Shown piece by piece: positions 1 to 13,565 of a stretch of 53,790 bases of DNA. Under the pieces are notes generated by a model. The model was not told the origin of the DNA. It saw only the letters and a program-made list of their open reading frames with translations, and did not search any database. Position 1 is the first letter of the stretch. Every line of letters begins with the position of its first letter. The DNA is from Gemmatimonadota bacterium (lineage in GTDB: Bacteria; Gemmatimonadota; Gemmatimonadetes; Longimicrobiales; Gaopeijiaceae). The DNA is taken from the NCBI GenBank assembly GCA_022822425.1, contig JAJEBS010000144.1, positions 1-53,790 on the forward strand, written 5' to 3'. The position numbers and the translations under genes are program-made.

Positions 1-208
1 ACCCCGGCAGCAGCCGCCGAGGGGATGCTGTGCTCCCCTTCGCACCCTTGGGCAAGGTTGGCGCCGACCGTGGACGCGAGCACTTCCTCGCCCTTCCCGG
101 TGCGATGCTCGGCCGACATCCACCAGCACGCCCGGCGACACGCTGCCCAGCCCGTCCGGCTCCCCGATGCGGGGTTACAGCCCCGCCCTTAACACCGTTG
201 ACAAAAGG

Positions 209-229
209 TGGGGAGTCCCCGGGGCCACG
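209..229 (-). terminator. weak candidate terminator hairpin downstream of the HExxH gene
   Basis: Read on the minus strand, a GC-rich inverted repeat (GTGG...CCAC enclosing GGGGACTCCCC) lies about 60 nt after the stop codon of the HExxH protein and is followed by only four T residues. It could end the left operon. The T tract is short, so this is a weak call. The rest of 1-289 shows no gene I can support. Confidence 0.25.
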
Positions 230-289
230 CTTCGCTTGGTCCCGGCAGGAAGCTGACGAAGGGGCTTCGCCGCCTCGACTCCCAAAATC

Positions 290-985
290 CTAGTTCGACT
301 TTCCTTCGGCGTCAGGGCAGTCGGGCCAGGAAGTTTCGTCGTCGTAATCGCAAACGACCGTGATCTCGCCGAGTTCGGCGCTGCCGCTGGAGGATCTGGG
401 AACATACACAATGACCCAAACGCTGGGGATGTTTCCGTGCGGTACCTTGCTGACGATTCTGGGGCTGCCGCCGCCACCGCCGCTGCTATTTCCGTCGTTC
501 CCGTCTTCGTCGTCCTCTTTCCCGTCCTCCCGCCCCTGCGTGAAGCAGGAGATGAAGTCGTCATTGTTATCGGGCCCGCTGTTGCCGTAGCCCGCATGGT
601 GCATGGCTTCGTGAATGACGGTCCCCAACTGCAGATCGATGGACAAGGAGGAGTCCACCACAACTTCATGCTGGGGAGTGTAATGGGTTCCCAGCCGGTT
701 GCTCACCTTGTCCACCCCGACGTACCAAGTGTCGCCGCCGTTCAGCGCTCGCATCACCTCCGTCTTCACATTCCCGCACGATATCGTCGAGTCCGTGGGA
801 TGGGCGGCCAGCCAGTAAGCTGAGTTCCCGATGTCCCGCTTCCAAGTGGAAACCGGCGCAGGGCCAAGACCTGTCCACCTAGCCAGAAGCGATGACGATG
901 TCTGCGGGCGTGCCAGCGCGGGAATGAGAACCAGAGCGAGGGGGATGCCGAGCCAAAGCAGGCGTATTCTTCGGTTCATCGTCAT
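290..985 (-). CDS. secreted HExxH zinc-metallopeptidase-like protein
   Basis: This 231-residue protein begins with an N-terminal signal peptide (MTMNRRIRLL, then a hydrophobic run to about residue 26). The central motif is HEAMHH, with H125, E126 and H129 fitting the HExxH zinc-binding and catalytic signature. An acidic stretch (about 145-160) and a glycine-rich linker lead into a short C-terminal segment. The third zinc ligand is not obvious, so the peptidase family cannot be named. I chose the ATG at 985 rather than the upstream start because it precedes a clear signal peptide and overlaps the stop of the upstream lipoprotein gene as ATGA, which suggests translational coupling. The protein is probably exported to the periplasm or surface. 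Regulation probably comes from the boxed promoter upstream of the lipoprotein gene. Catalytic activity is inferred from the motif alone. Confidence 0.7.
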   Translation of the reverse strand: MTMNRRIRLLWLGIPLALVLIPALARPQTSSSLLARWTGLGPAPVSTWKRDIGNSAYWLAAHPTDSTISCGNVKTEVMRALNGGDTWYVGVDKVSNRLGTHYTPQHEVVVDSSLSIDLQLGTVIHEAMHHAGYGNSGPDNNDDFISCFTQGREDGKEDDEDGNDGNSSGGGGGSPRIVSKVPHGNIPSVWVIVYVPRSSSGSAELGEITVVCDYDDETSWPDCPDAEGKSN

Positions 986-1437
986 AGCCCTAGTCCGAAA
1001 ACGCCAAAGTACTCGTCGAGTGCCCCGGCAAGCTGCTCGGGCGGAGCCGTGCGCCCTTCCGTGCGCGCTCGTATTGCCCCTATGATGGCGGCGATTGCAT
1101 CCTCCGACACCCGCCCATTCCCGCAACGTGAACGCCGGGCGGGCGGTTCCCATGTCCGGAAGAACTCCGAGGGTCCCTCGTTCTCGTCGAACCAAGGCTC
1201 TTCGTTCTCATCGAACCAGGAGCGGTGAAGTTGCAGGACATCGGGGTTCTCGGCGAGCAAACGGTTGTACTCCGCCTCCCACCGCTCCGGGGACTCCGGG
1301 TCCAGCGCCGCCACGACCAACGCATTGTACGGATCACCCGGCGGGGCCAGAAACCCCCCGTCATCGCATCCGGCGGACAGCAGGGCGACAGCAGACGCGA
1401 CCAAGATCGCGGTTGCGCCGTTCTGATTCTTGCTCAT
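982..1437 (-). CDS. small lipoprotein of unknown function
   Basis: This 151-residue protein has a textbook lipobox (LLSAGC) after a hydrophobic signal, so it should be lipid-anchored. The start at 1437 is preceded by AGGAGG at good spacing. The mature part is acidic and has no domain I recognise. It contains a tandem duplication, WFDENEEP followed by WFDENEGP, that is also visible in the DNA at about 1175-1220. It is the first gene of a two-gene operon, and its stop overlaps the start of the HExxH protein by four bases. The two proteins may act together, for example as anchor or inhibitor and enzyme, but that is inference. A promoter region with three palindromic boxes lies 115-200 bp upstream. 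Confidence 0.75.
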   Translation of the reverse strand: MSKNQNGATAILVASAVALLSAGCDDGGFLAPPGDPYNALVVAALDPESPERWEAEYNRLLAENPDVLQLHRSWFDENEEPWFDENEGPSEFFRTWEPPARRSRCGNGRVSEDAIAAIIGAIRARTEGRTAPPEQLAGALDEYFGVFGLGL

Positions 1438-1825
1438 TGGATTCCTCCTCGTTTCGGCAACTTGGGGTTGCGCCTCTAAAAACGGTTTTTGCGTCAATCT
1501 CTTCCTTCCCGTTTCGTGCCTCTCGGGGGCCGAGGAGACGAACGCACTCCAATCATAGACAACGCGTGGTATCCCCAAGAGAGGGAAAACCCTGAATTCA
1601 TGAGGGGGAAATCCCCTGACGCCACCCCGGGAAATCCCCCCAAAGTCATCAGGGCAACGCCCTTCTCTGGGACCCCGATACCCCGGCCCAATCGCACTGT
1701 GTAGCGCCGGGGCCCCGAAGCTTGTTTTGCCGAAACTGGAGGCACGCGGACCTTCAGTCCTGCGGTTTCGCCACCCTAGAACCGACCGCCAAATGGCTCG
1801 CTGGAGTTGCGAATGGTTGGGGTGC
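1438..1825. other. 388-bp gap holding the left boxed promoter
   Basis: There is no supported gene between the lipoprotein start (1437) and the propeller stop (1826). The gap holds the promoter of the lipoprotein/HExxH operon with its repeated GGGAAATCCC boxes (1552-1662). The rest, 1690-1825, shows nothing recognisable. Confidence 0.7.
1552..1662 (-). promoter_or_regulatory. promoter with repeated GGGATTTCCC boxes (left operon)
   Basis: Plus-strand coordinates of three near-palindromic boxes are GGGAAAACCC 1583-1592, GGGAAATCCC 1606-1615 and GGGAAATCCC 1629-1638, a pitch of exactly 23 bp. A more degenerate GGGCAACGCCC at 1652-1662 continues the 23-bp pitch. Toward the gene, seven bases after the last box, the minus strand reads GGGGATACCAC (1576-1566) and then a -10-like TATGAT (1557-1552). 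The layout matches the right operon promoter at 5646-5756. Periodic boxes next to a core promoter are typical of cooperative activator binding. The likely ligand is the NarL-type regulator encoded at 4738-5391, which is inference. Confidence 0.6.
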
Positions 1826-3106
1826 TTATCGGGAATGTCTACGAAAGTTGCGGATCGCCGCCGGGCTTTGCCTTACCGTAACGACCGGAACATCGAACTC
1901 GTCGGTTTCGACGAAAGCGACCAGTCCGCCCGGACCGAAGGCGTCCGGCATCCTAGGTTGCCCTGATGGCAGCGTGCCGACGTATTCCCAGTGCGGCGCG
2001 ACTACATCGATGGGACCCGGCGCTTCCGTCCCCGGATCCGCGCTGCGTTCGATCCACAAGACCCCGCTCCAACTGGTGCGCACGGCCGCGACCACCGGCA
2101 CTTCGGCGAAAAACTGCATGTTCTCGACAGCCGCCGCGTAGCCCGCCTGCGCCCGGTTGAACATCTCCAAGACCTGCGGAGGCGGTTCTCTCCCGCTCAT
2201 GGTGGTGACCCGTCGGTTCCGCTGCTCTTCGAGGCGGCGCTCACGCTCCGCGCTTCTCATCGCCTCCGTGACTCGCATCGGCCGTATGGGTCGGCGGAGG
2301 ACATGCGATACCTCGCCGGATGGATCGCTGATCTTGATCGCATAGGCCGAGGAATCCGAAAACACGACCCCGCCCGACGCGAGCACGTCAAACACAACGT
2401 CGGGTTCGAATCCCCACTCCTCGTCGATCAGTTCCTCGATTTCGCCGGTCCTCAGACCATGGTCCTCTCGCCCCGGCGGCGTCCATGGTTCCACCAAAGT
2501 GCGCTCCGTCACCTCTTCCGACGACATGTCAACGCTGATGATCGAGCGACCGTTCCGACCGATCACCGTATGGTGTTGTCCGATCCGAACCGGTCGGAGG
2601 CCGGGGCGACGTGAGATGCCGAAACCCGCGTCCGCGCCCGCTTCCCTCACCATCCGCTCGAACTCGCCGCGGGCGTCGAAGACGTGATGGGCCTGATGCA
2701 GCATGTCCTCGACTAGAGTGTGTCCGTCGGCCCACACCACGAGTTGCATCGCCGATCGGAACTCGCCCGGACCCTCGCCAGCGCGACCGAATTCGTGCAG
2801 GTATTGGCCTGAAGGATCGACCACTACGATGCGGGTGGCGCTCTCCACGCCTCCACCATCCATGAGGTAGAGGTTCCCAGCCGCATCGAAGCCCAGGTCC
2901 CGGATGGACGAGAACTGCTCCCATTCGGCCTCCGCCGCAACTGATCCGATGCGGTAGACGAGCTCAAAGTCCCCCGAAACGGGACGATCCTCGCCGGGGA
3001 GGTCTACCACCTCCTGAGCTTCAAGGACGATGGTTCCCATCGCCACCACGAGCACTGCGGCTAGACAAGTGCCCCCGATAGCAACGAATCGTGGTTTCCA
3101 GAGCAT
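1826..3106 (-). CDS. 6-bladed beta-propeller (NHL-like) exported protein
   Basis: The protein has 426 residues. It starts with a signal or anchor segment (MLWKPRFVAIGG, then a hydrophobic run ending near VLEAQ) and continues with propeller-type repeats. The pattern is clear in phrases such as DLGFDAAGNLYLMD, VVVDPSGQYLHEFGRAGEGPGEF and VVWADGHTLV, which are typical of the 6-bladed beta-propeller proteins common in Gemmatimonadota. I chose the ATG at 3106 because AGGAGG lies about nine bases upstream and the signal sequence follows. An in-frame extension to 3253 looks non-coding. The function is unknown; such proteins are thought to bind ligands or partners in the periplasm or outside the cell. 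The gene is divergent from the kinase/regulator pair, and I see no GGGATTTCCC boxes in its upstream region. Confidence 0.8.
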   Translation of the reverse strand: MLWKPRFVAIGGTCLAAVLVVAMGTIVLEAQEVVDLPGEDRPVSGDFELVYRIGSVAAEAEWEQFSSIRDLGFDAAGNLYLMDGGGVESATRIVVVDPSGQYLHEFGRAGEGPGEFRSAMQLVVWADGHTLVEDMLHQAHHVFDARGEFERMVREAGADAGFGISRRPGLRPVRIGQHHTVIGRNGRSIISVDMSSEEVTERTLVEPWTPPGREDHGLRTGEIEELIDEEWGFEPDVVFDVLASGGVVFSDSSAYAIKISDPSGEVSHVLRRPIRPMRVTEAMRSAERERRLEEQRNRRVTTMSGREPPPQVLEMFNRAQAGYAAAVENMQFFAEVPVVAAVRTSWSGVLWIERSADPGTEAPGPIDVVAPHWEYVGTLPSGQPRMPDAFGPGGLVAFVETDEFDVPVVTVRQSPAAIRNFRRHSR

Positions 3107-3400
3107 CCCGACATCTCCTCCTTGGTTTGGGTCGTCCGTCGCAAGACCCCACCCGAAGCCATCTACAATGAAACCAACAGGTACGATGCGCCATCGCTCT
3201 CTGCTTTCCCCCACGGCCCAGAGGAGTTTCTCGAAAGGGCCTGCCGGGGGCAAGACCGGCTTGACAGGCCGGCCTCGTTCCCCGAGTGACTTGGCTCGGC
3301 GGTTGCAGCCTTATCCGGAACATTGGGCCATGGAGGGGTTCTAGGAAAGGAGTTCGGTTCCGACAGTGAGCGGCTTGCGTCCAGCCCGAGTCCGAAGGAA

Positions 3401-3432
3401 GCCGCCGCACGCGGAGCGAGTCGTGCGGCGGC
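3401..3432. repeat. perfect 11-bp inverted repeat (hairpin)
   Basis: GCCGCCGCACG (3401-3411) and its exact reverse complement CGTGCGGCGGC (3422-3432) flank a 10-nt loop. There is no T tract on either side, so it is not a standard intrinsic terminator. It sits about 300 bp from the propeller start and 160 bp before the kinase promoter. Its role is unknown. Confidence 0.7.
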
Positions 3433-3591
3433 GGCGAACGGCGCTGTAATCCGCGTAGGATGCGTTGGCGAAAGCGCTTGCCTCGCCGACCCCCGACCGG
3501 ACGATCCGGCTCCTGGACGAAGCCGCCTTCGACTCCTACCTCCCGGATCGGGCTACGGCGGGCTTGATGACATCTTGCGTTCAGACGCCCG

Positions 3592-3622
3592 TTGACATTC
3601 TCCGGCCATGTGTCCGTATGAT
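3592..3622 (+). promoter_or_regulatory. sigma70-type promoter for the two-component genes
   Basis: A perfect -35 TTGACA (3592-3597) is followed after 19 bp by TATGAT (3617-3622). The spacing is slightly long. The predicted transcript would start near 3629, leaving a leader of about 65 nt before the TTG start at 3695. Confidence 0.5.
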
Positions 3623-3694
3623 TGAACGGACACCGGCGTGGTTGTTGGCGATGGGTTACCAACCCGCTTGGACGCAGGAAAGGAGGCAACCGGA

Positions 3695-4744
3695 TTGCTG
3701 ACCGATAGGGACTACAGGGCCGTGTTCGAGGCCTCGCCGGACGCGATGCTCGTCGTGGACTCCGACGGCGTCATCCGGGACTTAAACCGACAGGCGTCGT
3801 CGATGTTTGGATGGAGCCGCGAAGAGATCGAGGGCTCCGGCGTGGACCGGCTGGTTCCTGCCGGTGTCCGCAGTCGGCACGGGCAGCACCGTCGGCGCCA
3901 GGCCGAAGCGCCGCGAGCGCGACCGATGGGGCAGGGAGTGGAGTTACAGGCTCTGCGCAAGGATGGCACGACCTTCCCGGTGGAGATCAGTCTGAGCCCC
4001 GGCGAACTGGCATCGGGGCCGGAACACGTGATCTGCACCATCCGTGAAACCTCGGCTTGGAAGCGGATGCGGTGGCTCTCCCGAACGAAGCTGGAAGCGG
4101 CCGAGAACGAGCGAAAGCACCTTTCCCGCGAGCTGCATGACGAGTTCCTCCAGTTCCTGGTCGCGTTCAAGATCAGGGGAAGGCTTTTGGTGGACGAAAC
4201 GGATCGGGAGAAGAGGGAACGTGCGTGGGCAGTGATCGCCGACGAGATCCTTACCGCAATCCGAGGGGTAAAGCGGATGATTCGCGGGCTCAGGTCGCCG
4301 AAACTCGAACAACAGGGGCTTGTTTCCGCGCTCGCCACCCTGTTTCGCGATGCCCGGAAGGTGCACGGAGTCACGATCCGCGCCAGCGTCAACCTCGACT
4401 GGGTGGCCGACGAATTGGATCCGTTGACGGTCCTGGCCGTGTACCGGATCGTGCAGGAGGCCGTGACCAACGCCGCGACGCATGCAAGGGTGAGCGAGGC
4501 TGCCGTGACCCTCAGATCGGCGGACGGGATGATCTTCGCGGAGATCCGAGACGAAGGATGCGGGTTCGAGTTGTCCGACCCCGGAGTGGCACTCGAAGAT
4601 GGCCACGTCGGCGTCGGCCTCGTCGGGATGCGTGAGAGAGCGGAAGCAGTCGGGGGGAGCCTCACCATACAGACATCGCCGGGGTCGGGAACCACGGTTC
4701 GGGCCGAAGTGCCGATGGTGGGTCCGGAGCGCGAGCAATGGTGA
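3695..4744 (+). CDS. cytoplasmic PAS sensor histidine kinase (HisKA_3 type)
   Basis: This is the sensor kinase of a two-component pair. With the TTG start it has 349 residues. Order of parts: a PAS domain (about residues 6-120, beginning RAVFEASPDAMLVVDSDG), a short helical linker, a HisKA_3 dimerisation domain with the phospho-acceptor in LSRELHDEF (H148), and an HATPase_c domain with an N-box (IVQEAVTNAATHA) and G-boxes (DEGCGFE, VGLVGMRERA). No transmembrane segment is visible, so the signal is probably intracellular, for example a redox state, a small ligand or a cofactor bound by the PAS domain. I chose the TTG at 3695 because AGGAGG (3681-3686) sits eight bases upstream; a GTG at 3638 is the alternative and lacks a ribosome site. 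The gene overlaps the regulator gene by seven bases, so the pair is surely co-expressed. Confidence 0.85.
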   Translation: MLTDRDYRAVFEASPDAMLVVDSDGVIRDLNRQASSMFGWSREEIEGSGVDRLVPAGVRSRHGQHRRRQAEAPRARPMGQGVELQALRKDGTTFPVEISLSPGELASGPEHVICTIRETSAWKRMRWLSRTKLEAAENERKHLSRELHDEFLQFLVAFKIRGRLLVDETDREKRERAWAVIADEILTAIRGVKRMIRGLRSPKLEQQGLVSALATLFRDARKVHGVTIRASVNLDWVADELDPLTVLAVYRIVQEAVTNAATHARVSEAAVTLRSADGMIFAEIRDEGCGFELSDPGVALEDGHVGVGLVGMRERAEAVGGSLTIQTSPGSGTTVRAEVPMVGPEREQW

Positions 4745-5391
4745 GGGTACTGCTGGTCGACGACCACAACGTCATGCGAGCCGGTTTGAAGGCACTGCTC
4801 GAATCGACAGGGCGGATCGACGTCGTGGGCGAAGCATCGTCGGGGAAGGAAGCTGTGGACAAGGCACGGATGCTGGAACCCGACATCATCATCATGGACT
4901 TGGCGATGCCCGGGATGGGCGGGGTCGAGGCGACACGCCGGATCACCTCACTCGGCTTCGACACGAAGGTCTTGATACTCACGATTCACGACGAGGACGA
5001 GTTCCTCGTGCCGGTCCTCAACGCCGGGGCCGCGGGCTTCCTGAACAAGTCCGTCGCCGACACCGACCTCATGGGCGCCATCGAAGCGGTCATGCGCGGA
5101 CGCTCCTTTCTGACGCGCCGCGCAGCGGCCCTGCTCGCGCGCCAAGGGGCACAGGGCACCTCTGACGAGGAACCGGGACCCGAGGTGCTTTCCGCGCGAG
5201 AGCGCCTCGCGGTGGCGATGTACGCGAACGGCTATTCGGCCAGAGAGGCGGCGGAAGAGATGCTTCTGAGTCCCAAGACCGTCGAGGGCTACCTCGCCCG
5301 CGCCAAGACGAAGCTGGGTCTGCACACCCGGCGAGACATCGTGCGCTTTGCCCTCAGGGCCGGGCTCCTGGAGGCCAACAGCGAGCGGTAG
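4738..5391 (+). CDS. NarL/FixJ-family response regulator
   Basis: This 217-residue regulator partners the kinase just upstream. The receiver domain (about 1-120) has the acidic pair DD (8-9), the phospho-acceptor D54 in IIMDLAMPG, a conserved T in LILTIHD and K near 105 in GFLNKS. The C-terminal LuxR-type helix-turn-helix (about 148-210) reads LSARERLAVAMYANGYSAREAAEEM, then LSPKTVEGYLARAKTKLG. Such proteins usually dimerise on DNA after phosphorylation. Candidate targets are the periodic GGGATTTCCC boxes before the lipoprotein genes on either side (1552-1662 and 5646-5756); this link is inferred from position and symmetry only. Confidence 0.92.
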   Translation: MVRVLLVDDHNVMRAGLKALLESTGRIDVVGEASSGKEAVDKARMLEPDIIIMDLAMPGMGGVEATRRITSLGFDTKVLILTIHDEDEFLVPVLNAGAAGFLNKSVADTDLMGAIEAVMRGRSFLTRRAAALLARQGAQGTSDEEPGPEVLSARERLAVAMYANGYSAREAAEEMLLSPKTVEGYLARAKTKLGLHTRRDIVRFALRAGLLEANSER

Positions 5392-5801
5392 GGGCTGCGG
5401 GCCGCACCTGGCGGTTGGAATCGTCGAGGGGCTTCCCAAGTCGGCAGGTGCGGCCTTCATGAACGAGAATCCGGATCCGGCGGTACTGGCTTCCAAGGGG
5501 TCACGAGGCTCAGCGCATCACGGCAAGGAGGTTGCCCGCAACTACCCGGCGAATTGTTCCGGCGGGAGCTGGATCGACACGTCAGCGGCAGACGCCAAGG
5601 CTGAGCGGGACCGCGGTATTCGATTGCGCATCAGCACGACCCGCCGGAAGGCCCTAAGCGTCGATGGAGGGATTTTCCCGTCGTGAAGCCGGTGGTTTTC
5701 CCGTCACCGGTACAGGGATTTCCCGCTGCCGGGGTGTACCCACAACATCGCATCTTGGTTGCATCGGCGCTTCAGCCCTCAGTCCCAAAGGAGATGCAAC
5801 G
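5392..5801. other. 410-bp gap holding the right boxed promoter
   Basis: No gene is supported between the regulator stop and the lipoprotein start. The last 160 bp hold the promoter with the GGGATTTCCC boxes. A short frame at about 5459-5686 has no recognisable features and runs through the boxes, so I do not call it. Confidence 0.6.
5646..5756 (+). promoter_or_regulatory. promoter with repeated GGGATTTCCC boxes (right operon)
   Basis: Three boxes are visible: GGGATTTTCCC 5669-5679, TGGTTTTCCC 5693-5702 and GGGATTTCCC 5715-5724. Their CCC ends lie 23 and 22 bp apart, and a poor fourth copy (GGAAGGCCC 5646-5654) continues the pitch. Seven bases after the last box comes GGGGTGTACCC (5731-5741), and CATCTT at 5751-5756 sits where the left operon promoter has its -10 TATGAT. 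From the last box to the TTGG after the -10, the two promoters are the same length (44 bp) and agree at about 24 positions without gaps. The predicted leader is about 45 nt. Confidence 0.6.
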
Positions 5802-6941
5802 ATGAGAAAAGAGAGCCTTCCCCTGCTTTCTGCCGCTGTGATGTTGTTGGCTTGCAACGACATAACGCCATCCGACACGACTCGGTTCTCGCCAACCCTC
5901 GGTGAGAGCGAGGACGAACTCTCGACCGTGGCTGCCGCGATTGCGCATTCCATGGCGACCGCGAATGTGCGGATGTCTGTACTGGAGGCCATGAGAGCGT
6001 CCGTAGGGGTCGAGCACCGCTTGATGCTCGCCGGTTTTCTCCGCGCGAGCGAAAGCACCTCGTTCCTTCGCGAGAGCGCGAACGCGCTGGGTATGTCGAG
6101 TTCCGACTTCATCGCCCAAGTCGAGGCACTCGGGGAGATCGAGATGGTCGTCCCACTTCGGGAACACCGCCTTGGCTGGACGGGGACCTCCCGAATCGGC
6201 GTGGCAGGCATGTGGGACTCCGAACTGCCCGAACTCATCGTCTACGAACCCTCGGGCGCGAGTCGTGAGATCGTCGTGAGCGAAGCACTTGCCGGGTATG
6301 ATGCACTCTTCCTCGTACGCCCGATGGAAACAATCGGAACCCGAATCGGTCGGCAAGCGGACGTGCCGGGTGCGGTTATTCAAGATCCGGACGATGGCGA
6401 GATCGCAGTGATCTGGACGCTGAGGACCGGGGAAGAGGAGGCGAAGTCTGTCGACTTCGGCAGCTTCGATTCCGACGAAGCACTGCGGGACTACTTGAGA
6501 GCCGAATTTGGCACGGGCGCCACCGGGCTTGCGCAAGGTGGCTGCGCCGATTCCCTGAGCTACGCTTGCGATGCTCCCGGTACCGGAGGGGGCGGTGGCG
6601 GCACAGTATCCAACTCCCCGACGACGCTGGATGCGTTCGCCCTGAACGTAGCGACCGAGATCGGAACGGAGGAAGTCGAGATCACCGTTGGATACGCCAA
6701 CGCAGATGGCATCTGGATCAGTGGGACCGCCCGCTACGAGGGGGTCGACCCCTTCAAGGGCTACGCGGTGGGGGATGAGATATTGCCCGTTTCGCCCGCC
6801 CGGGGAGGGGCGACATTTGAGGTGAGCGCGGTCGAAACGGATATCCTGTTCGATGACGACCTCGGCTGGGACTCGTTCGACTACCATACAGGCCCGGGGA
6901 GTTACGTCCTCGCCCGCATCGTCGTCGACCTGTCCTGGTAG
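5802..6941 (+). CDS. lipoprotein of unknown function, first gene of TonB-receptor operon
   Basis: This 379-residue protein begins MRKESLPLLSAAVMLLAC, a signal peptide with a lipobox. An AAAGGAG site sits about seven bases before the ATG; an in-frame extension to 5664 would run through the promoter boxes and is rejected. The N-terminal two thirds is helical at first (about 35-110) and then beta-rich. A glycine linker (about residue 265, GTGGGGGG) separates a C-terminal domain of roughly 110 residues that is acidic and beta-rich and ends in IVVDLSW. I cannot assign a family. The TonB-dependent receptor starts 72 bp downstream. A surface or periplasmic partner role for that receptor is plausible but unproven. 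Expression is probably driven by the boxed promoter. Confidence 0.75.
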   Translation: MRKESLPLLSAAVMLLACNDITPSDTTRFSPTLGESEDELSTVAAAIAHSMATANVRMSVLEAMRASVGVEHRLMLAGFLRASESTSFLRESANALGMSSSDFIAQVEALGEIEMVVPLREHRLGWTGTSRIGVAGMWDSELPELIVYEPSGASREIVVSEALAGYDALFLVRPMETIGTRIGRQADVPGAVIQDPDDGEIAVIWTLRTGEEEAKSVDFGSFDSDEALRDYLRAEFGTGATGLAQGGCADSLSYACDAPGTGGGGGGTVSNSPTTLDAFALNVATEIGTEEVEITVGYANADGIWISGTARYEGVDPFKGYAVGDEILPVSPARGGATFEVSAVETDILFDDDLGWDSFDYHTGPGSYVLARIVVDLSW

Positions 6942-7013
6942 GCGAGGGACCATGATTCGCCTCTCGGCAATCGACTGTGCCGGCCCTCGCTTCGTGGTGG
7001 AAGGTGGACACAC

Positions 7014-9332
7014 GTGATCAGCGCACTACTGCTTGTGACTCTCCAGCAGGTCACCCTCGCAGGCGTCGTCCGCGACAGCGTCGACCTGGAGCCGGTCGCG
7101 TTTGCGCACGTCGCGGTTATGGCCAAGGATGCGGAAGCCGAGGTGATGGCAGGCACCTCCGACCGCTTCGGAGCGTTCGTCATACCGGATACTCGCGCAG
7201 TCGGGGGGTTCCGCGTGGAGGTGAGCGCCCTCGGTTACGCGCCGTGGACGCGGAGCTACGACGAGCTTCCCGCTGCACCCATCAGGGTTCTTTTGCAACC
7301 GGCCCCGATCAGACTCGAAGGGGTCGAAGTGAACGTCCGTGGTCGTGCTGGCGACCCGCTTTCGATGTCGCGGGACGCCTTCGTCGTGGACTCGGCGCTG
7401 ATGCGGACGCTACCAACCATCCTTGAGACGGACGTACTGAGGGCGACCGCGATCTCGCCGGCCGCGTCGGCACCCTCCGACTACGCCTCCATCCCCTACG
7501 TCCGTGGCGGGACAAGTGAAGGAACTCCCGTGCTGCTCGACGGCGTACGGCTGTTCAACGCCTTCCACCTCGGAGGGTTCCTGTCGGCGGTTAACGCGGA
7601 GGTGGTCGAGCGGGCGACTCTCTTGGCGGGCTCGGGTGCCGAGGCGCTACAGGTCGGATCGATCTCCGGCGCGATCGATATCGCCACCCGGGACGGTGCC
7701 CGCGACCGGCGGCGGGTGGCGGGTTCGTTGGGACTGGCCTCGTCCCGGCTTTCAATGGAGGGACCCATCGGACAAAGTGTATCTTACCTGCTCGACGGGC
7801 GCCGCACCTATATCGACGGGATCACCCGCCTGCTGGAGGAGACTGGGGTGATCGAGCAGCACGCGCCCTATTTCTTCCAGGATGGCCACGCCAAGGTTAC
7901 GAAGGACTTCGGGGGTCTCCGCCGCCTCTCCGTGAGTGGGTACGTCAACTCCGAAGCGCTGCGGAACTTCGACTCCCGGGATGCCAAGACGCTTGAGCTT
8001 CAGTGGGGCAATGCGGCGTTGTCGATGCACTACCGCGATCGGCTGGGCGCGACCGGGATACTAGATGTGACCATCGGTCGCAGCCGATTCGCGAGCGACC
8101 TGCTGGGGTTGGGCGGGGGCCGCGCGTCGTACCTGAACGGCGTGCCGCGCGATTACGAGCCGCCAAGCGACACCTTGTTGTCCGGTAGCGGATCGATGAG
8201 CGAGGATCGCGCAGACCTGAAGCTCACGTGGCACTTGGGCCGTGCTACGGTCACGACCGGTGCGCAGGCGACGAGCTTCTCGGGCGATCACGCATACGAT
8301 CTCGACGAAGATTTCGAGGCGGACGATGGCTACTTCTTCTCGCCTCTGGACCTCCGGGAGCGCCGGTGGCGGTTCGCGGGCTATTCGAGCGCCAACGTGG
8401 GGCTTGCTAAAGGCCTTTCGGCGCTGACGGGCGTGCGCGTCGATCACTTCCAGGGATTGACGACCGCCGTTTCGCCCTTTGTCGAGATGAGCTACGCGGC
8501 TTCGTGGTGGGATGTGCGATTGTCGGCCTCCCGGTCCCATCAGGCACTATCTTCCGTGCGCAACGAGGAAGCGCTGGGAGCGAGCTTCCTCGCGTACGAC
8601 CTGCTCGTGCCCGTCGACTCGGAACCCATTCCTCGCAACACCCAGCTTTCGGTCGGCTGGGAGGGATCCCGGGGAGGGCTTCGTCTACGTCTTGACGCGT
8701 ATGCGCGGACACTTGAGCGTCTCAGGCTGCCCGCGCTAGGCGAGAAGCCCATCACAGCCGCCGCCCTCGGCGATCCGTCGTTGTGGGAGGTGGCAAGCGG
8801 GACGGCGCGTGGGATCGAGGCGTCGTGGAGCTGGAAGGCCGACCTGGGGATGTCAGTGCTGGGGAGCTACCGGTGGGCGAAGGTGTCGCGAACGGTTGGG
8901 GCCACTACCTACACGCCACGCTTCCACCGGGAGCACGAGTTCGAGTTGGGCATTTCATACGATAAGGGTGCCTCTTCCTGGTCTGCGCGTGTCTCACTGC
9001 GGTCGGGCCAGCCGACGACACCGCTGGAGGCGATTGTGCCCGTCGAGCGGTCTCCGTTTGGAGTGGTTCAGGTCGTGCCTCTGGGCGGAACGTACAATTC
9101 GGGGACACTGCCCTACTATGCGCGCATCGACGTGGGGTGGCGCCGTCCCCAGCAAGTCTCGTGGTTCGGCGGTGGGTCCATCGTCCCCTACCTGTCGGTC
9201 GCCAATCTCTTCAGCCTGCCCAATGTCGTCGGCTTGAGGGTTGAGAGGCAGGGTGCCGACGAGGAAGTCAAGAGAGTGTATCTGCCACAGCTTCCAATGA
9301 TTCCGTTCTTCGGCGTGGAGTTTCGGTTTTGA
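7014..9332 (+). CDS. TonB-dependent outer-membrane receptor with carboxypeptidase-like N-domain
   Basis: The 772-residue protein has a short signal-like start (MISALLLVTLQQVTLAG), a carboxypeptidase-regulatory-like beta-sandwich (about 14-100, GVVRDSVDLEPVAFAHV, then DRFGAFVIP), a plug domain (about 110-230; IPYVRGGTSEGTPVLLDGVRLFN, then GSISGAIDIATRDG) and a 22-strand-type beta-barrel ending in an aromatic residue (PFFGVEFRF), as outer-membrane proteins do. It should import a ligand using TonB energy; the substrate cannot be read from sequence. The GTG at 7014 is preceded by GAAGGTGG. The next gene starts within its stop codon. It is shorter than SusC-type receptors, and no SusD gene is present. 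Confidence 0.88.
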   Translation: MISALLLVTLQQVTLAGVVRDSVDLEPVAFAHVAVMAKDAEAEVMAGTSDRFGAFVIPDTRAVGGFRVEVSALGYAPWTRSYDELPAAPIRVLLQPAPIRLEGVEVNVRGRAGDPLSMSRDAFVVDSALMRTLPTILETDVLRATAISPAASAPSDYASIPYVRGGTSEGTPVLLDGVRLFNAFHLGGFLSAVNAEVVERATLLAGSGAEALQVGSISGAIDIATRDGARDRRRVAGSLGLASSRLSMEGPIGQSVSYLLDGRRTYIDGITRLLEETGVIEQHAPYFFQDGHAKVTKDFGGLRRLSVSGYVNSEALRNFDSRDAKTLELQWGNAALSMHYRDRLGATGILDVTIGRSRFASDLLGLGGGRASYLNGVPRDYEPPSDTLLSGSGSMSEDRADLKLTWHLGRATVTTGAQATSFSGDHAYDLDEDFEADDGYFFSPLDLRERRWRFAGYSSANVGLAKGLSALTGVRVDHFQGLTTAVSPFVEMSYAASWWDVRLSASRSHQALSSVRNEEALGASFLAYDLLVPVDSEPIPRNTQLSVGWEGSRGGLRLRLDAYARTLERLRLPALGEKPITAAALGDPSLWEVASGTARGIEASWSWKADLGMSVLGSYRWAKVSRTVGATTYTPRFHREHEFELGISYDKGASSWSARVSLRSGQPTTPLEAIVPVERSPFGVVQVVPLGGTYNSGTLPYYARIDVGWRRPQQVSWFGGGSIVPYLSVANLFSLPNVVGLRVERQGADEEVKRVYLPQLPMIPFFGVEFRF

Positions 9333-10168
9333 GGGGGTACGCGCTTCTCGCTCTGCCGGTCGTCCTGGTGTTTTCGGCGGTCTGCGACGGTCTCACCCGT
9401 CCGGCCGATCCGCTTGAGACGGACCCCGACGTGGTCACGGTTGGCATCGTGCTCATCGCTGGCGAGGAGGTCGCCCGCATGCTCGCAGCGCACCCGCACC
9501 GCCCCCGCACCGGTTCCCCGCCGCAGATGGAGGCGGTCTTGAAAGGACCTGGATGGATGGCCTCGTTCTCAGAAACCGTGCCGTTGGAGTCATGCACGCT
9601 CGCCGGTCCGGACATGTGGCCAGGCCCGACAACCTGCCTCCAAGCAGCGCTTCCAGAACCGATCCGGTCACGGGTCCGATACGATATTGCGGGGACCGCG
9701 CTGCCGGGCAGGTTCACCGGCACGGTGGTCGTGCCCGTGGCGGCCGAGCTGATGGAGCCGGGAGACACTCTGGTGCTCCCTGCTCCCTCCGGTGGGAACA
9801 GGGTCGAGGTCGCGGTTCGTTACCGGGTCGAGTCCGATGTGGGCACGGTGCGAGCCGAGGTCTCGGAAGCGTCCGAGACGTCGAGCAACGGAACCGAGGT
9901 GCAGGTGGGCTTGGGTCTGCTTGGCGTTATACCAGCAACGCTCGAACGCGCTGGCGCGGACACGCTCTCCGTTCGGTACAGAGGCAGGCCGATGCGTTTC
10001 TCTCTACGACTGCTTGCGCTGGGATGGAACTACACCAACTTCGTGGCGCATACGAGCAGTTTTCCGCTGCCTGAGCCGTGGCCCAACTTCGGCATTGAAG
10101 GCGAAGGCGCGTACGGCTATTTTGCCGCCGCCGCCCCATCACGGGTTGCGGAGATCCGGGTGAGATAG
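9329..10168 (+). CDS. exported receptor-associated protein (possibly DUF4249-like)
   Basis: The 279-residue protein starts at TTG 9329, overlapping the receptor stop as TTGA, which implies translational coupling. The N-terminus is a signal peptide with a possible lipobox (VFSAVC). The body looks beta-rich, with phrases such as VEAVLKGPGW-like and YDIAGTALPGRFTG segments and paired cysteines near residues 89 and 104. DUF4249 lipoproteins often follow TonB-dependent receptors in FCB bacteria, and the size, position and fold pattern are compatible, but I cannot confirm membership. A role in ligand capture beside the receptor is inferred. It is the last gene of the operon; the next gene is convergent. 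Confidence 0.65.
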   Translation: MRGYALLALPVVLVFSAVCDGLTRPADPLETDPDVVTVGIVLIAGEEVARMLAAHPHRPRTGSPPQMEAVLKGPGWMASFSETVPLESCTLAGPDMWPGPTTCLQAALPEPIRSRVRYDIAGTALPGRFTGTVVVPVAAELMEPGDTLVLPAPSGGNRVEVAVRYRVESDVGTVRAEVSEASETSSNGTEVQVGLGLLGVIPATLERAGADTLSVRYRGRPMRFSLRLLALGWNYTNFVAHTSSFPLPEPWPNFGIEGEGAYGYFAAAAPSRVAEIRVR

Positions 10169-10385
10169 TTGGGCTCAATCCAAGTCCAAGGGTCTCGCCA
10201 ATTGACTCCGGTTTTCCCGCTCTCGCGACCCGATTCGACAGAACGTGGTCCAATGGCAAGGATGGCAGATCGTGCAGTCCCAGTTTGACTTACGTGATCT
10301 CTTGCCGTGATTCGCGTCCCCAGAATTCTGTCGTTACGTCAGGGTTTGGAAGGATGGGGTCCCGGCGATAATCCCGGCCCTCCCC

Positions 10386-13300
10386 TCACCGCCGCAGCCG
10401 CACCGCCTCCCTGAGCCCGCGCGTCATGCTCACTTCCAGGTCGGCCTCGTCCCTGAGCGCGTCCGGCAGCGCCCCTTCCCAGTCCCGCAGAATTGCGCGC
10501 AGGCGTCCCGTCCCTGGCTCGGTGACCACCGTTACGCGGCGCTCGTCGGTCTGGTCCACGAATGCCTCACCCTCCGGCCCCGTCAGCGTGATGCTTTCGA
10601 GCGCGTTCTCCCAATCGGCCTCGATCGGCACCGTGAAGAAGAAGTGCCTGCCGCCGTGTCCGTCGTCGCTGGGCCAGAAGTCCAGCGAGAACACCGTACC
10701 GCCGTCCGAGGTGGTCCCGCGAATGCGGTAGGGACCCGGCGTCCCGGGCAGTCTGGCCCCCGCGCGCATCGAAAATGCCGGATCGATCCACAGCTCTCCG
10801 TCCACCATTCCGCCCCGGAGCACGAGCATGTCGGAGGGCGAGTTCGCCGCGGCCAATTGTGCGCTGCCGGTGTCCGCGTCCAACTGCGCCCGATGGTCGA
10901 TCACCTTCTCGAAGTAGTAGTCGCTGAGCCAGGGCAGCGTCCGGCAGTAGGTCATGATGTCCTTGCCCCGGTCGGGAGGAACGGTCGATCCATTGCGGAA
11001 GTCATAGCCCCACACGCCGATGCTCCCGTCCTCGTAGGGGAAGTTCGGATCAACGCCGCTGGGATCGCCGCACGGCGCGTGCCTGAGCGAGAGGTTGTGC
11101 CCTACTTCGTGCGCCAGCGTGGTCGATCTCGCCACGCCCACGCTCACCCGGCCGGGAAGCTGCCCCCGACCGGCGACGGACCCCAGGTTGGCGGCGACCC
11201 CGTAGTAGTAGCCCGTTCCGCCTTCCGATGCCCGCAGCGCCTCGAGCTCTCCAAACAGCGACACCTGCCCGGCCGAGGTGGTGAGATCCAGCGAGGTGTG
11301 ATAGGCCTCGTGCGGCCTGACGCTGAACTCGGCAAACGGGAATGCGTGCCTGAGCAGTCCCACCTCGGGGCTGTCGTCGGAGATGCCGCGGACCCACTCC
11401 ACAACCGACGAGTCGGGCTCCGCGGCGTCCATCACCGGAACCAGCGTGAGGAGCATCGAGGGCACATCCACCACGTTCAGCGCGTCCGATCCCTCCTCCG
11501 GGAAACGGGTCTTGCTTTCGTCGGTGAGAGGCAGGGTTCCCTCGGGGTCGACCTCGACGACCATCTCGACGCCCGGGACGAGGATCTCGGCGGGGATCAC
11601 CGCGTTGTACGACAGTTCGAGGTCGCCCTCGTCCGCCTCCGCGGGGATCCGGTTGGCATCGCGGGTCATGATCGCGCTGTGAACCTCCTCCCCGTCCGGC
11701 CCCGTGAATACCGCCACGACCTCGGGCTCGAAGAACCCGCGCGGCTCCTCGGCTGTGACGAATGCCCTGAGAAGCGCGTCACGGTCGGCCACCAGACGTA
11801 CGCTCCCGGACGGGGCCTGGACCGACTGCGTGAGGTAGACCATCGGCAGGGCCACCGTCACCTGATCGGGATTGTCGCAGACGGCGCCGGCGGTCTGCTC
11901 GATCGCGCCGTACCACGCCTGGAAGTCCGGCGCGGGCGAGGCGCACAGGCCGGTGTCCTCGTGGAGCAGCACGCGAACCCGTTCCAGCCCCCGGAGCCCG
12001 AACGGCAGCGCACCCTCCAGCCCCGGATTCCGGCCCAGCCGCAACTCGGCAAGCTCATGCAACCCGGCGAAGGAGCCCGGGAACGAACCGGAGAGTTCGT
12101 TTTCGGCCAGGTCCACCACCCTGAGCTCAAGTAGGTTGGCGATCTCCGCCGGGAGCGGACCGGACAGGCCGTTGGCGGACAGCGCCAATCCCACGACACG
12201 CCCGTCCTCGGTGGACACTCCGTGCCAGTCGTCCACAGGAGCGTCGGTCCCCCATGCCGCCCGGTTCGCCCAGGATGCTCCTCCGGTCACCTCGTGCAGG
12301 TCCGTGAGAGCAAGTCGTTCGACCTGCGCGACATCGCAATCCGTCCTGCTGCCCTCGGGAATCGTCCGCAACCACTCCTGGAACACTTCGTCGATCTGGG
12401 CGCACAGATCGGTCTCCCCGTACGACAACACCTGCAGGAAATCGAGACCGATCATGCTCCGCGGCAGCAGGCCGGCCAGGTTCTGGTTCCCCTCGAGCTC
12501 GAGTCGGGCCAGGGCCCGGGGTCTGCCCAGATTGCGGGGCAGCTCGCCGCTGAGCTGGTTGTCCGCGGCTCGCAGGTCCTCGAGCGCCGCGAGGTTGCCG
12601 AGTTCCTCGATCAATGGACCCGAAAGCCCGTTGTCGTGAATCCAGAGTGTCTGCAGTTCCGACAGGTTGCCCAGCGAGACCGGAATTTCGCCGGTGAGCT
12701 GGTTCTGGTAGAGATACAGCCCTTCCAGGGTGGTCAGGTTGCCCAGCTCGGGCGGAATCGTCCCGGTGAGGTTGTTGCGCGAAACCGACAGAATCCGGAT
12801 CGAGCTCAGCTTCGCCAGTTCGACCGGAATCGTGCCCGTCAGCTGGTTACGGCTGAGGCTCATGTAGGTGAGGTTCGCGAGGTTGCCCAGTGCCGGCGGC
12901 ACCGGACCCGTCAGTTGATTCAACGCCAGGAGCAGCCTCCGCAGCGAGGAGAGATTCCCCAGTTCGGCGGGAATGGGGCCGGTCAGTTCGTTGCGGTGCA
13001 GCAGCAGGGAGTCGAGCCGCGGCAGGGATCCGAGTTCAGAGGGGATCGTCCCGGTCAGGCCGTTGACGCCCAGATCCAGCATGGTCAGCTGGCTCAGACC
13101 GGCCAATCCCGCCGGGATCGAACCCGTCAGCTCGTTGTCGCCCAGAACCAGACGTCTCAGTTCGGGCAGATTGCCGAGTTCCGGCGGGATCGGACCCGTC
13201 AACCGGTTCTCCTCCAGAACCAGTTGTCTCAGGTGCGTCAGATTCCCGAGTTCGGGCGGGAGGGCACCGGACAGGTTGTTGTCCGTCAGCGTCAGCTCGG

Positions 13301-13565
13301 TGACGAAGCCGGCCGAATTGGTCGACACCCCCTGCCAGTCGCGGATACTCCCGACGGTGGTCCAGTTCCTGTCCCGATGCCAGTGGGTCCCGTTCGTCGC
13401 GTTGTAGAGGGCGATGAGCGCGGCTCGCTCGACCGCATAGGGCTCCTGAGGGGGAGGCGGTGGGGGAGGAGCGGGTGGGGTGGTGGTGGCCGGGTCGTCC
13501 GAGCAGACGGCCAGCAGGATCGCGCCGAAGGCCGTTGCCAGGACGCGTGATCTCGGACGTGCCAT
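10386..13565 (-). CDS. lipoprotein with two LRR blocks fused to a metzincin-type protease
   Basis: The 1059-residue protein has a signal with lipobox (AILLAVC), a proline-rich linker and an LRR cap (ALIALYNATNGTHWH, then DWQGV). About a dozen 24-residue leucine-rich repeats of the plant-like type follow (LGNLxxLxxLxLxxNxLTGxIP, about 85-370). A cysteine-bearing cap leads to a second, shorter LRR block with its own cap (about 415-560), and then a beta-rich linker. The protease module carries HEVGHNLSLRH, with H819, E820, H823 and H829 fitting HExxHxxxxxH, and a Met-turn-like DIMTYC (M871), both metzincin hallmarks. It probably sits on the cell surface, binds a protein or glycan through the LRRs and cuts it. 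A GGAGG site precedes the ATG. Confidence 0.85.
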   Translation of the reverse strand: MARPRSRVLATAFGAILLAVCSDDPATTTPPAPPPPPPPQEPYAVERAALIALYNATNGTHWHRDRNWTTVGSIRDWQGVSTNSAGFVTELTLTDNNLSGALPPELGNLTHLRQLVLEENRLTGPIPPELGNLPELRRLVLGDNELTGSIPAGLAGLSQLTMLDLGVNGLTGTIPSELGSLPRLDSLLLHRNELTGPIPAELGNLSSLRRLLLALNQLTGPVPPALGNLANLTYMSLSRNQLTGTIPVELAKLSSIRILSVSRNNLTGTIPPELGNLTTLEGLYLYQNQLTGEIPVSLGNLSELQTLWIHDNGLSGPLIEELGNLAALEDLRAADNQLSGELPRNLGRPRALARLELEGNQNLAGLLPRSMIGLDFLQVLSYGETDLCAQIDEVFQEWLRTIPEGSRTDCDVAQVERLALTDLHEVTGGASWANRAAWGTDAPVDDWHGVSTEDGRVVGLALSANGLSGPLPAEIANLLELRVVDLAENELSGSFPGSFAGLHELAELRLGRNPGLEGALPFGLRGLERVRVLLHEDTGLCASPAPDFQAWYGAIEQTAGAVCDNPDQVTVALPMVYLTQSVQAPSGSVRLVADRDALLRAFVTAEEPRGFFEPEVVAVFTGPDGEEVHSAIMTRDANRIPAEADEGDLELSYNAVIPAEILVPGVEMVVEVDPEGTLPLTDESKTRFPEEGSDALNVVDVPSMLLTLVPVMDAAEPDSSVVEWVRGISDDSPEVGLLRHAFPFAEFSVRPHEAYHTSLDLTTSAGQVSLFGELEALRASEGGTGYYYGVAANLGSVAGRGQLPGRVSVGVARSTTLAHEVGHNLSLRHAPCGDPSGVDPNFPYEDGSIGVWGYDFRNGSTVPPDRGKDIMTYCRTLPWLSDYYFEKVIDHRAQLDADTGSAQLAAANSPSDMLVLRGGMVDGELWIDPAFSMRAGARLPGTPGPYRIRGTTSDGGTVFSLDFWPSDDGHGGRHFFFTVPIEADWENALESITLTGPEGEAFVDQTDERRVTVVTEPGTGRLRAILRDWEGALPDALRDEADLEVSMTRGLREAVRLRR

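Follow-up and report, generated by a model that had tools for sequence, protein, structure and literature searches.

Introduction

At the Bordetella promoters Pfha and Pptx, the NarL/FixJ-type response regulator BvgA occupies tandem sites, the proximal of which abuts the -35 position; at Pfha, head-to-head dimers stand at three places, 22 bp on centre, with the last abutting -35 (PMC7250471). We describe here a promoter array of a similar kind, found twice in a stretch of 53,790 nucleotides of a Gemmatimonadota bacterium (contig JAJEBS010000144.1, positions 1 to 53,790; hereafter, the window), in which two operons on either side of genes for a PAS-domain kinase and a NarL/FixJ-type regulator each carry tandem near-palindromic boxes. 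The last two boxes of these arrays copy the 22-bp spacing, whereas the first box lies 2-3 bp further off in most relatives, and the box itself is GGGNTTTCCC rather than an inverted heptad such as TAAGAAATTTCCTA. The kinases also differ: BvgS is a large membrane hybrid kinase, whereas the kinase of the window is predicted to be short and soluble with a single PAS domain, and both the targets and the phylum are different. The arrays would work much like BvgA promoters, and the system is not BvgAS. Since BvgA is a close published analogue of the mechanism, this is a regulon of a known kind; what is new is the box, the lineage, the target set and the distinct upstream pitch.

Two further systems share single features with the locus. 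The DosR (DevR) regulon of mycobacteria is similar in that DevR is the closest solved structure to the regulator, and the DosR box is of the GGG...CCC type, as here, with a box length and spacing that differ from those of the arrays. DosS-type sensors use GAF domains, and the recognition helix reads KTVEGY here and KTVKNY in DosR. Cooperative binding of DosR at a neighbouring site is reported (PMC4082495). FixL-FixJ is similar in the PAS domain of the kinase and in a histidine that corresponds to the FixL haem ligand. No described motif or regulon of the present kind was met in the literature searched, mainly open-access journals.

The results below indicate that the regulon is real and that its promoter architecture is strongly conserved. 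We consider it highly probable that the arrays serve as activator-dependent promoters within a single regulon run by the adjacent kinase/NarL-type pair, and the controller is very probably the NarL-type protein encoded between the two operons.

Two box arrays flank a kinase/regulator gene pair

The elements at the centre of the analysis are the following.

1583-1638, minus strand: left array of three boxes, read from the sequence, with a pitch of 23 and 23 bp
5669-5724, plus strand: right array of three boxes, read from the sequence, with box ends 23 and 22 bp apart
1552-1557, minus strand: left -10 element TATGAT, read from the sequence, 25-30 bases past the last box
5751-5756, plus strand: right -10-like element CATCTT, read from the sequence, close to the offset from the last box found in other arrays
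3638-4744, plus strand: sensor histidine kinase (Pfam: PAS, HisKA_3 and HATPase_c)
4738-5391, plus strand: NarL/FixJ-type response regulator (Pfam: receiver domain PF00072, 98.3 bits; GerE helix-turn-helix domain PF00196, 49 bits)

On the minus strand, the left array consists of GGGATTTCCC (1629-1638), GGGATTTCCC (1606-1615) and GGGTTTTCCC (1583-1592), with a weaker fourth box, GGGCGTTGCC (1653-1662), 24 bp further upstream. The right array reads GGGATTTTCCC (5669-5679), TGGTTTTCCC (5693-5702) and GGGATTTCCC (5715-5724) on the plus strand. A re-scan of the sequence reproduced the box positions and the 22-23-bp pitch given in a preliminary description of this DNA. Single boxes with at most one mismatch were not in excess in the window (91 against 82.8 expected, sd 9.9). 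Chains of three boxes at 21-24 bp were found in the window solely at the two arrays, and none occurred in 150 simulated windows with the dinucleotide frequencies of the window.

The flanks of the two arrays also agree. The -10-like elements lie at matching distances from the last box, as had been noted, and the position of the left TATGAT agrees with the A at +26 (42/73) and the T at +30 (58/73) of the aligned arrays described below. An ungapped promoter match of roughly 24 identities over 44 bp had been claimed, and our recount of 26/47 agrees with this. On both sides of the window, a GGGG does start on the seventh base past the last box; this element had been taken as part of the promoter, and we dropped it since it is not conserved in related arrays. 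A search for a sigma-70 consensus promoter in 1400-6000 returned none, which is weak evidence, the chance expectation being just 0.4.

The regulator combines a receiver with a GerE helix-turn-helix domain, as in the NarL/FixJ family, and its neighbour is a HisKA_3 kinase, an arrangement that is common but not universal in this family; the open reading frame of the kinase (ORF; 3638-4744) overlaps the regulator start. The pair had been placed exactly between the two operons. It does lie between them, but on the left a beta-propeller-like gene (1826-3253), co-directional with the left array, intervenes between that array and the kinase gene.

Promoter geometry in related genomes

Candidate arrays in relatives were collected by a triple TTTCC pattern screen of 154 genomes of the order, which matched 36 genomes, compared with 10/154 for the reversed control. 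The matches included clear GGGTTTTCCC arrays with differing flanks and also many simple repeats (e.g. G152, G050:C275). The pattern was used solely to find candidates. A strict double-box pattern tried on the window's own genome found the left array alone; it was too strict and was replaced. From 17 aligned arrays, 7 of them beside a regulator of the clade defined below, we built a sequence-only model of 105 positions. Since the model search scores a limited number of candidates per genome, array counts are lower bounds. The left and right arrays scored 72 bits (E 1.1e-19) and 53.7 bits (E 5.2e-14), respectively, each being itself among the 17 that built the model.

Boxes and spacing were examined in 96 distinct arrays, of which, by a strict score, 2 had four boxes, 55 three, 16 two and 23 one (57/96 with three or four boxes). 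Of the 73 arrays that had two boxes or more, 66 showed a last pitch of 22 or 23 bp. The arrays of the window (23, 23 and 23, 22) are among the more regular ones. In the arrays of L060 and L066, for example, the first pitch is typically 24-25 bp and the last 22-23 bp.

Directly downstream of the last box there is a preference for TCTA, and from there to +26 no strong conservation is seen. A -10 hexamer stands at +25 to +30 from the last box, with A at +26 in 42/73 and T at +30 in 58/73 arrays. The conserved hexamer thus follows the end of the last box by 25 bases; no -35 element is conserved in the aligned arrays. If transcription starts seven bases past the -10, the last box would be centred near -42. 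With the -10 hexamer 25 bases on and the start taken from this prediction, the last box would abut the -35 position, as at the BvgA promoters. A last box just upstream of -35, together with the absence of a conserved -35, fits an activator.

In the order, at E ~1e-7 or better, arrays were found in 9/11 genomes of genus g1 (the window's own genus), 21/23 of g2 and one g38 genome only. In a phylum sample, 36/395 genomes had a match at E<=1e-4, namely genomes of g1, g2 and g38, seven of g85 (another family) and one with a half-length match (G378). An exact-pattern scan of named species genomes, for which a hand estimate at even base composition gives about six chance matches, returned 28 stretches: 16 from Gemmatimonadota/Gemmatimonadetes and 1 from the BD2-11 clade, these 17 being from metagenome genomes, 2 from one bin and 9 single matches in other groups. 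When these were re-scored with the model, the Gemmatimonadota and BD2-11 stretches gave 26-72 bits, the bin 18-19 and the other nine 16-32, the best of the nine being L157 (Flavobacteriaceae) at 32 bits.

Arrays and a regulator clade occur together

We defined clade regulators, for a survey of 121 genomes of the family, by at least 59% identity to the window regulator. Arrays (E to ~1e-7) were present in 28/28 genomes with a clade regulator, compared with 3/93 without one (G003, G010, G033). Inside g1 and g2 together, the counts were 27/27 and 3/7 (Fisher p 0.0008); with G000 left out, as its copies are those of G023, 26/26 of the genomes with a regulator had arrays (p 0.0009). In the other family, a regulator at 64-71% identity was found in 5/7 array-bearing g85 genomes, and in a sixth such genome, G209, the contig includes the kinase and breaks off 63 residues into the regulator.

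The preliminary description had expected arrays to be scarce where the pair is lacking, and this was the case when the DNA pattern of the recognition helix was used as a marker in the 395 genomes. The pattern occurred in 28/395, all of which (28/28) have arrays, compared with 8/367 genomes without it (G003, G010, G026, G033, G193, G209, G294, G378). G026 and G294 do contain clade regulators, which the exact helix pattern missed. Among 16 sampled g85 genomes, the pattern was found in 4, all with arrays (4/4), and 3/12 of the others had arrays (p 0.02). Joint absence was seen as well: the model and regulator searches found neither array nor clade regulator in G005, G017 and G032, and G002 retains a regulator fragment of 110 residues and a kinase fragment of 63 residues, with no helix match and no array, which fits joint loss.

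Arrays also lie close to the regulator genes. Within 3 kb of a clade regulator we found 42/124 arrays, against 0.45 expected, and 33/56 regulator genes had an array within this distance; without G000 and with one double match merged, these counts became 40/120 arrays and 31/54 regulator genes. In g1 and g2 together, regulator and array numbers per genome were correlated (Spearman 0.72). The placement of the array varies: it may stand before the kinase/regulator operon, after the regulator gene, driving the next operon (as in the window), or diverging from the kinase. The expected conservation of boxes ahead of orthologous operons was likewise borne out, in L058 and L183/L055 for the right operon and in L068 and L222 for the left or right one. 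Together, the co-occurrence and co-location of arrays and regulator clade support the proposal that the NarL-type pair is the candidate controller.

Recognition helix of the regulator and PAS domain of the kinase

The recognition helix of the window regulator is KTVEGYLARA, and that of the clade is close to KTVEGY(L/I)AR. Gly184 is present in 46/46 and Glu183 in 45/46 clade regulators, whereas position 184 is Thr or Asn in 8/8 less similar regulators. Among the 395 sampled genomes, the clade helix was found solely in array-bearing ones. The nearest solved structure is DevR/DosR (E 3.2e-33), whose Lys179, Lys182 and Asn183 touch DNA (PMC4082495). Regulator positions 180, 183 and 184 align with these residues, which are not all kept: the aligned residues are Lys, Glu and Gly.

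In the kinase, no clear transmembrane segment was found (highest 19-residue mean hydropathy, 0.93). Among solved structures, its PAS domain is closest to those of FixL (E 7.3e-16) and DosP. His81 aligns with BjFixL His200, and His occupies this position in 47/48 aligned kinases with a letter there; since less similar kinases have it too, it is not special to the clade. PAS domains that are not known to bind haem often have such a histidine as well. At the site of FixL Arg220, the window kinase has Val101, and the 48 aligned kinases with a letter there mostly have Leu (Leu 41, Arg 3). In BjFixL, His200 is the haem ligand and Arg220 bonds to the bound ligand (PMC10765370). Oxygen sensing by a predicted haem PAS would be a guess, not a finding.

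Genes downstream of the arrays

The other genes around the two arrays of the window are listed here.

982-1437, minus strand: small predicted lipoprotein, first gene after the left array (ORF; N-terminus MSKNQNGATAILV...SAGCDD)
290-985, minus strand: predicted secreted protein, second gene of the left operon (ORF; HEAMH motif)
1826-3253, minus strand: beta-propeller-like protein (PF17170, 21.8 bits, under the curated cut-off of 22.9; start codon uncertain)
5802-6941, plus strand: predicted lipoprotein, first gene after the right array (ORF)
7014-9332, plus strand: TonB-dependent-receptor-like outer membrane protein (Pfam: CarboxypepD_reg, Plug, barrel)
9329-10168, plus strand: third gene of the right operon (ORF)

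The lipoprotein of 982-1437, which has no NCBIfam match, has an ortholog after an array in L068 (71%), and so does the first lipoprotein of the right operon in L058 (68%); the latter has no family match in Pfam or NCBIfam. The same holds for the products of 290-985 and 9329-10168. The former has an ortholog in L068 (75%) and, judged from its HExxH motif alone, may be metallopeptidase-like; the gene of the latter adjoins the TonB gene in L055 and L058 too.

A crude in-house test predicted a signal peptide or lipobox for 45/83 first genes (start within 250 bp of an array), compared with 132/650 control ORFs from the same loci, a rough comparison because the controls had at least 100 residues and the first genes at least 45. 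A scan of 72 proteins, mostly from first genes, revealed six lytic transglycosylases with LysM, two proteins with a TonB plug domain and single ones with a thioredoxin-type or beta-sandwich domain. Small cysteine-rich secreted peptides are further putative targets.

Some small proteins recur at these loci. Secreted CC-rich peptides of 71-73 residues are encoded directly after arrays at L070:6734-6955, L186:2732-2950 and L192:820-1035, followed by a thioredoxin-like gene in all three loci and by a further gene in L070 and L186, that of L070 grouping with propellers; the L070 peptide has no NCBIfam match. A conserved protein of ~85 residues (MIVTIRVQPS...HRATAW...GKVLATVGVSP; L209:6640-6894 and nine relatives), again with no NCBIfam match, is the first called gene after the array in 10/10 cases. 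Otherwise differing small proteins at L227:5734-5982, L053:413-697, L065:2751-3020 and L185:9087-9371 share a tail near DPLxRLRRAGLI. In L178 and L179 (G020:C87, G021:C96), short lipoprotein genes (MKTALTRLAT...), each having an array to itself, stand in a row that leads up to a kinase/regulator operon. Elsewhere in the window, 10386-13565 on the minus strand encodes a 1059-residue protein with many leucine-rich repeats, and similar DNA is found several times in the genomes searched.

Origin of the window DNA

Positions 1-10350 of the window are 99.87% identical to G023:C42, from another genus (g2), whereas from ~10,325 on the window is g1-like (91% to G006), that is, like its own genus. The junction coincides with one edge of a dispersed repeat (~10192-10345). 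This repeat is ~95-155 bp long, and copies 77-88% identical to it occur in no fewer than 14/24 genomes. CGACAGAAC stands close to one of its ends and GAATTCTGTCG close to the opposite one; the two resemble short inverted ends, although a repeat finder did not pair them. The second contig of G000, G000:C162 (7.9 kb), is 99.96% identical to G023:C75 over its whole length and encodes a paralog regulator 67% identical to that of the window, and the four array matches of G000 are all on the two G023-like contigs. A chimeric contig plus a mis-binned one is the simpler reading, with a recent transfer between genera as a possible alternative. The regulon is independent of the contig's origin because it is present in many other genomes.

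Discussion

What was computed from the genomes comprises the arrays and their conservation, the constant spacing between last box and -10, the co-occurrence and co-location with the regulator clade, and the helix signature. Several results nevertheless weigh against control of one regulon by the neighbouring pair, or narrow it. With regard to geometry, the upstream pitch was 24 or 25 bp in 42/59 cases and all pitches fell within 21-23 bp in just 11/57 arrays with at least three boxes; therefore, equal spacing on one helix face, which the preliminary description had proposed from the 22-23-bp pitches of the window, is not general. This systematic asymmetry is unexplained by equal dimer stacking and speaks against simple same-face stacking of all three boxes. 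In addition, 23/96 arrays have one box only by the strict score. The association has its own limits: the model draws in part (7/17 arrays) on loci beside the regulator, and the p-values overstate independence because the genomes are related and DNA is shared between G000 and G023. When the threshold was relaxed to E<=0.01, one weak match each (E 9e-4 to 0.0099) turned up in eight further genomes, all of other genera. As for arrays in genomes with no clade regulator, G003 is 87% complete in 500 contigs, G193 has its array 307 bases from a contig end and G378 has the half-length match only. The array of G010 lies on a 3.9-kb contig that ends ~1 kb downstream, and its pair may be off the contig because L070 and L186, with the same first gene, have the kinase ~2.4 kb downstream. 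G033, one contig and 99% complete, has one array (41 bits) and is a real exception. Finally, for 82/124 arrays the nearest clade regulator is over 3 kb away or on a different contig.

These last two points would be expected if another regulator, of LuxR type or an alternative sigma factor, bound the arrays and the kinase/regulator pair were merely a target, and arrays ahead of the kinase would look alike in that case. We nonetheless consider this unlikely, since an array lies within 3 kb of 33/56 regulator genes, including arrays that drive the gene after the regulator, and the clade helix is confined to array-bearing genomes among those sampled; a sigma factor in particular could do without boxes 40-90 bp upstream, and the -10 appears normal. 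A second alternative is that the bound regulator represses: NarL-family members can do so, and geometry alone is no proof of the sign. A last box that sits upstream of -35, and not over the -10 or the start, with no -35 conserved, makes repression or a silencing array improbable in our view. That the boxes are chance or structural features (palindromes, a dispersed repeat family or duplicated intergenic DNA) is very hard to credit: the simulated windows contained no chain, and boxes and -10 stay while flanks and downstream genes differ, even though near-copy arrays do occur within a genome (G020 and G021, with equal scores and copied downstream genes) and the triple TTTCC pattern matched simple repeats and, when reversed, 10/154 genomes. 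The box also fits a eukaryotic kappa-B site, an idea dismissed given that the boxes stand at a fixed bacterial promoter distance.

We therefore return to the adjacent pair as controller of activator-dependent promoters and propose the following scheme. The PAS kinase would phosphorylate the neighbouring NarL/FixJ-type regulator, whose dimers would bind cooperatively in adjacent positions, each GGGNTTTCCC box taking one; the final dimer would sit directly before the -35 position, centred ~42 bp before the expected start. The bound dimers may then bring in RNA polymerase at promoters with a -10 and no recognisable -35, and so activate many genes for envelope and secreted proteins and, in several genomes, probably the kinase/regulator operon itself.

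A broader picture is conceivable, though we hold it to be rather doubtful. The system might be a modular signalling cassette of uncultured, partly marine and sponge-associated Gemmatimonadota that has spread between genera. A genome would then have several paralogous pairs of kinase and regulator, every pair with box promoters of its own close by, and the pairs would switch surface lipoproteins, TonB-type receptors, wall hydrolases and cysteine-rich secreted peptides by oxygen or redox state via a haem PAS. Up to five regulators per genome were counted, or six in another count, one of which has an internal stop. Record titles and a survey of the phylum (PMC10581226) suggest that the habitat of the carriers may be partly marine and sponge-associated; the survey gives six cultured species for Gemmatimonadota.

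For this phylum, the present results provide a regulon whose named candidate regulator, DNA box and promoter geometry can all be read from the sequence. They suggest that NarL-family regulators far from Proteobacteria also load neighbouring dimers up to -35, as at the BvgA promoters. Since arrays mark the targets directly, the regulon of these uncultured bacteria can be listed from their genomes alone.

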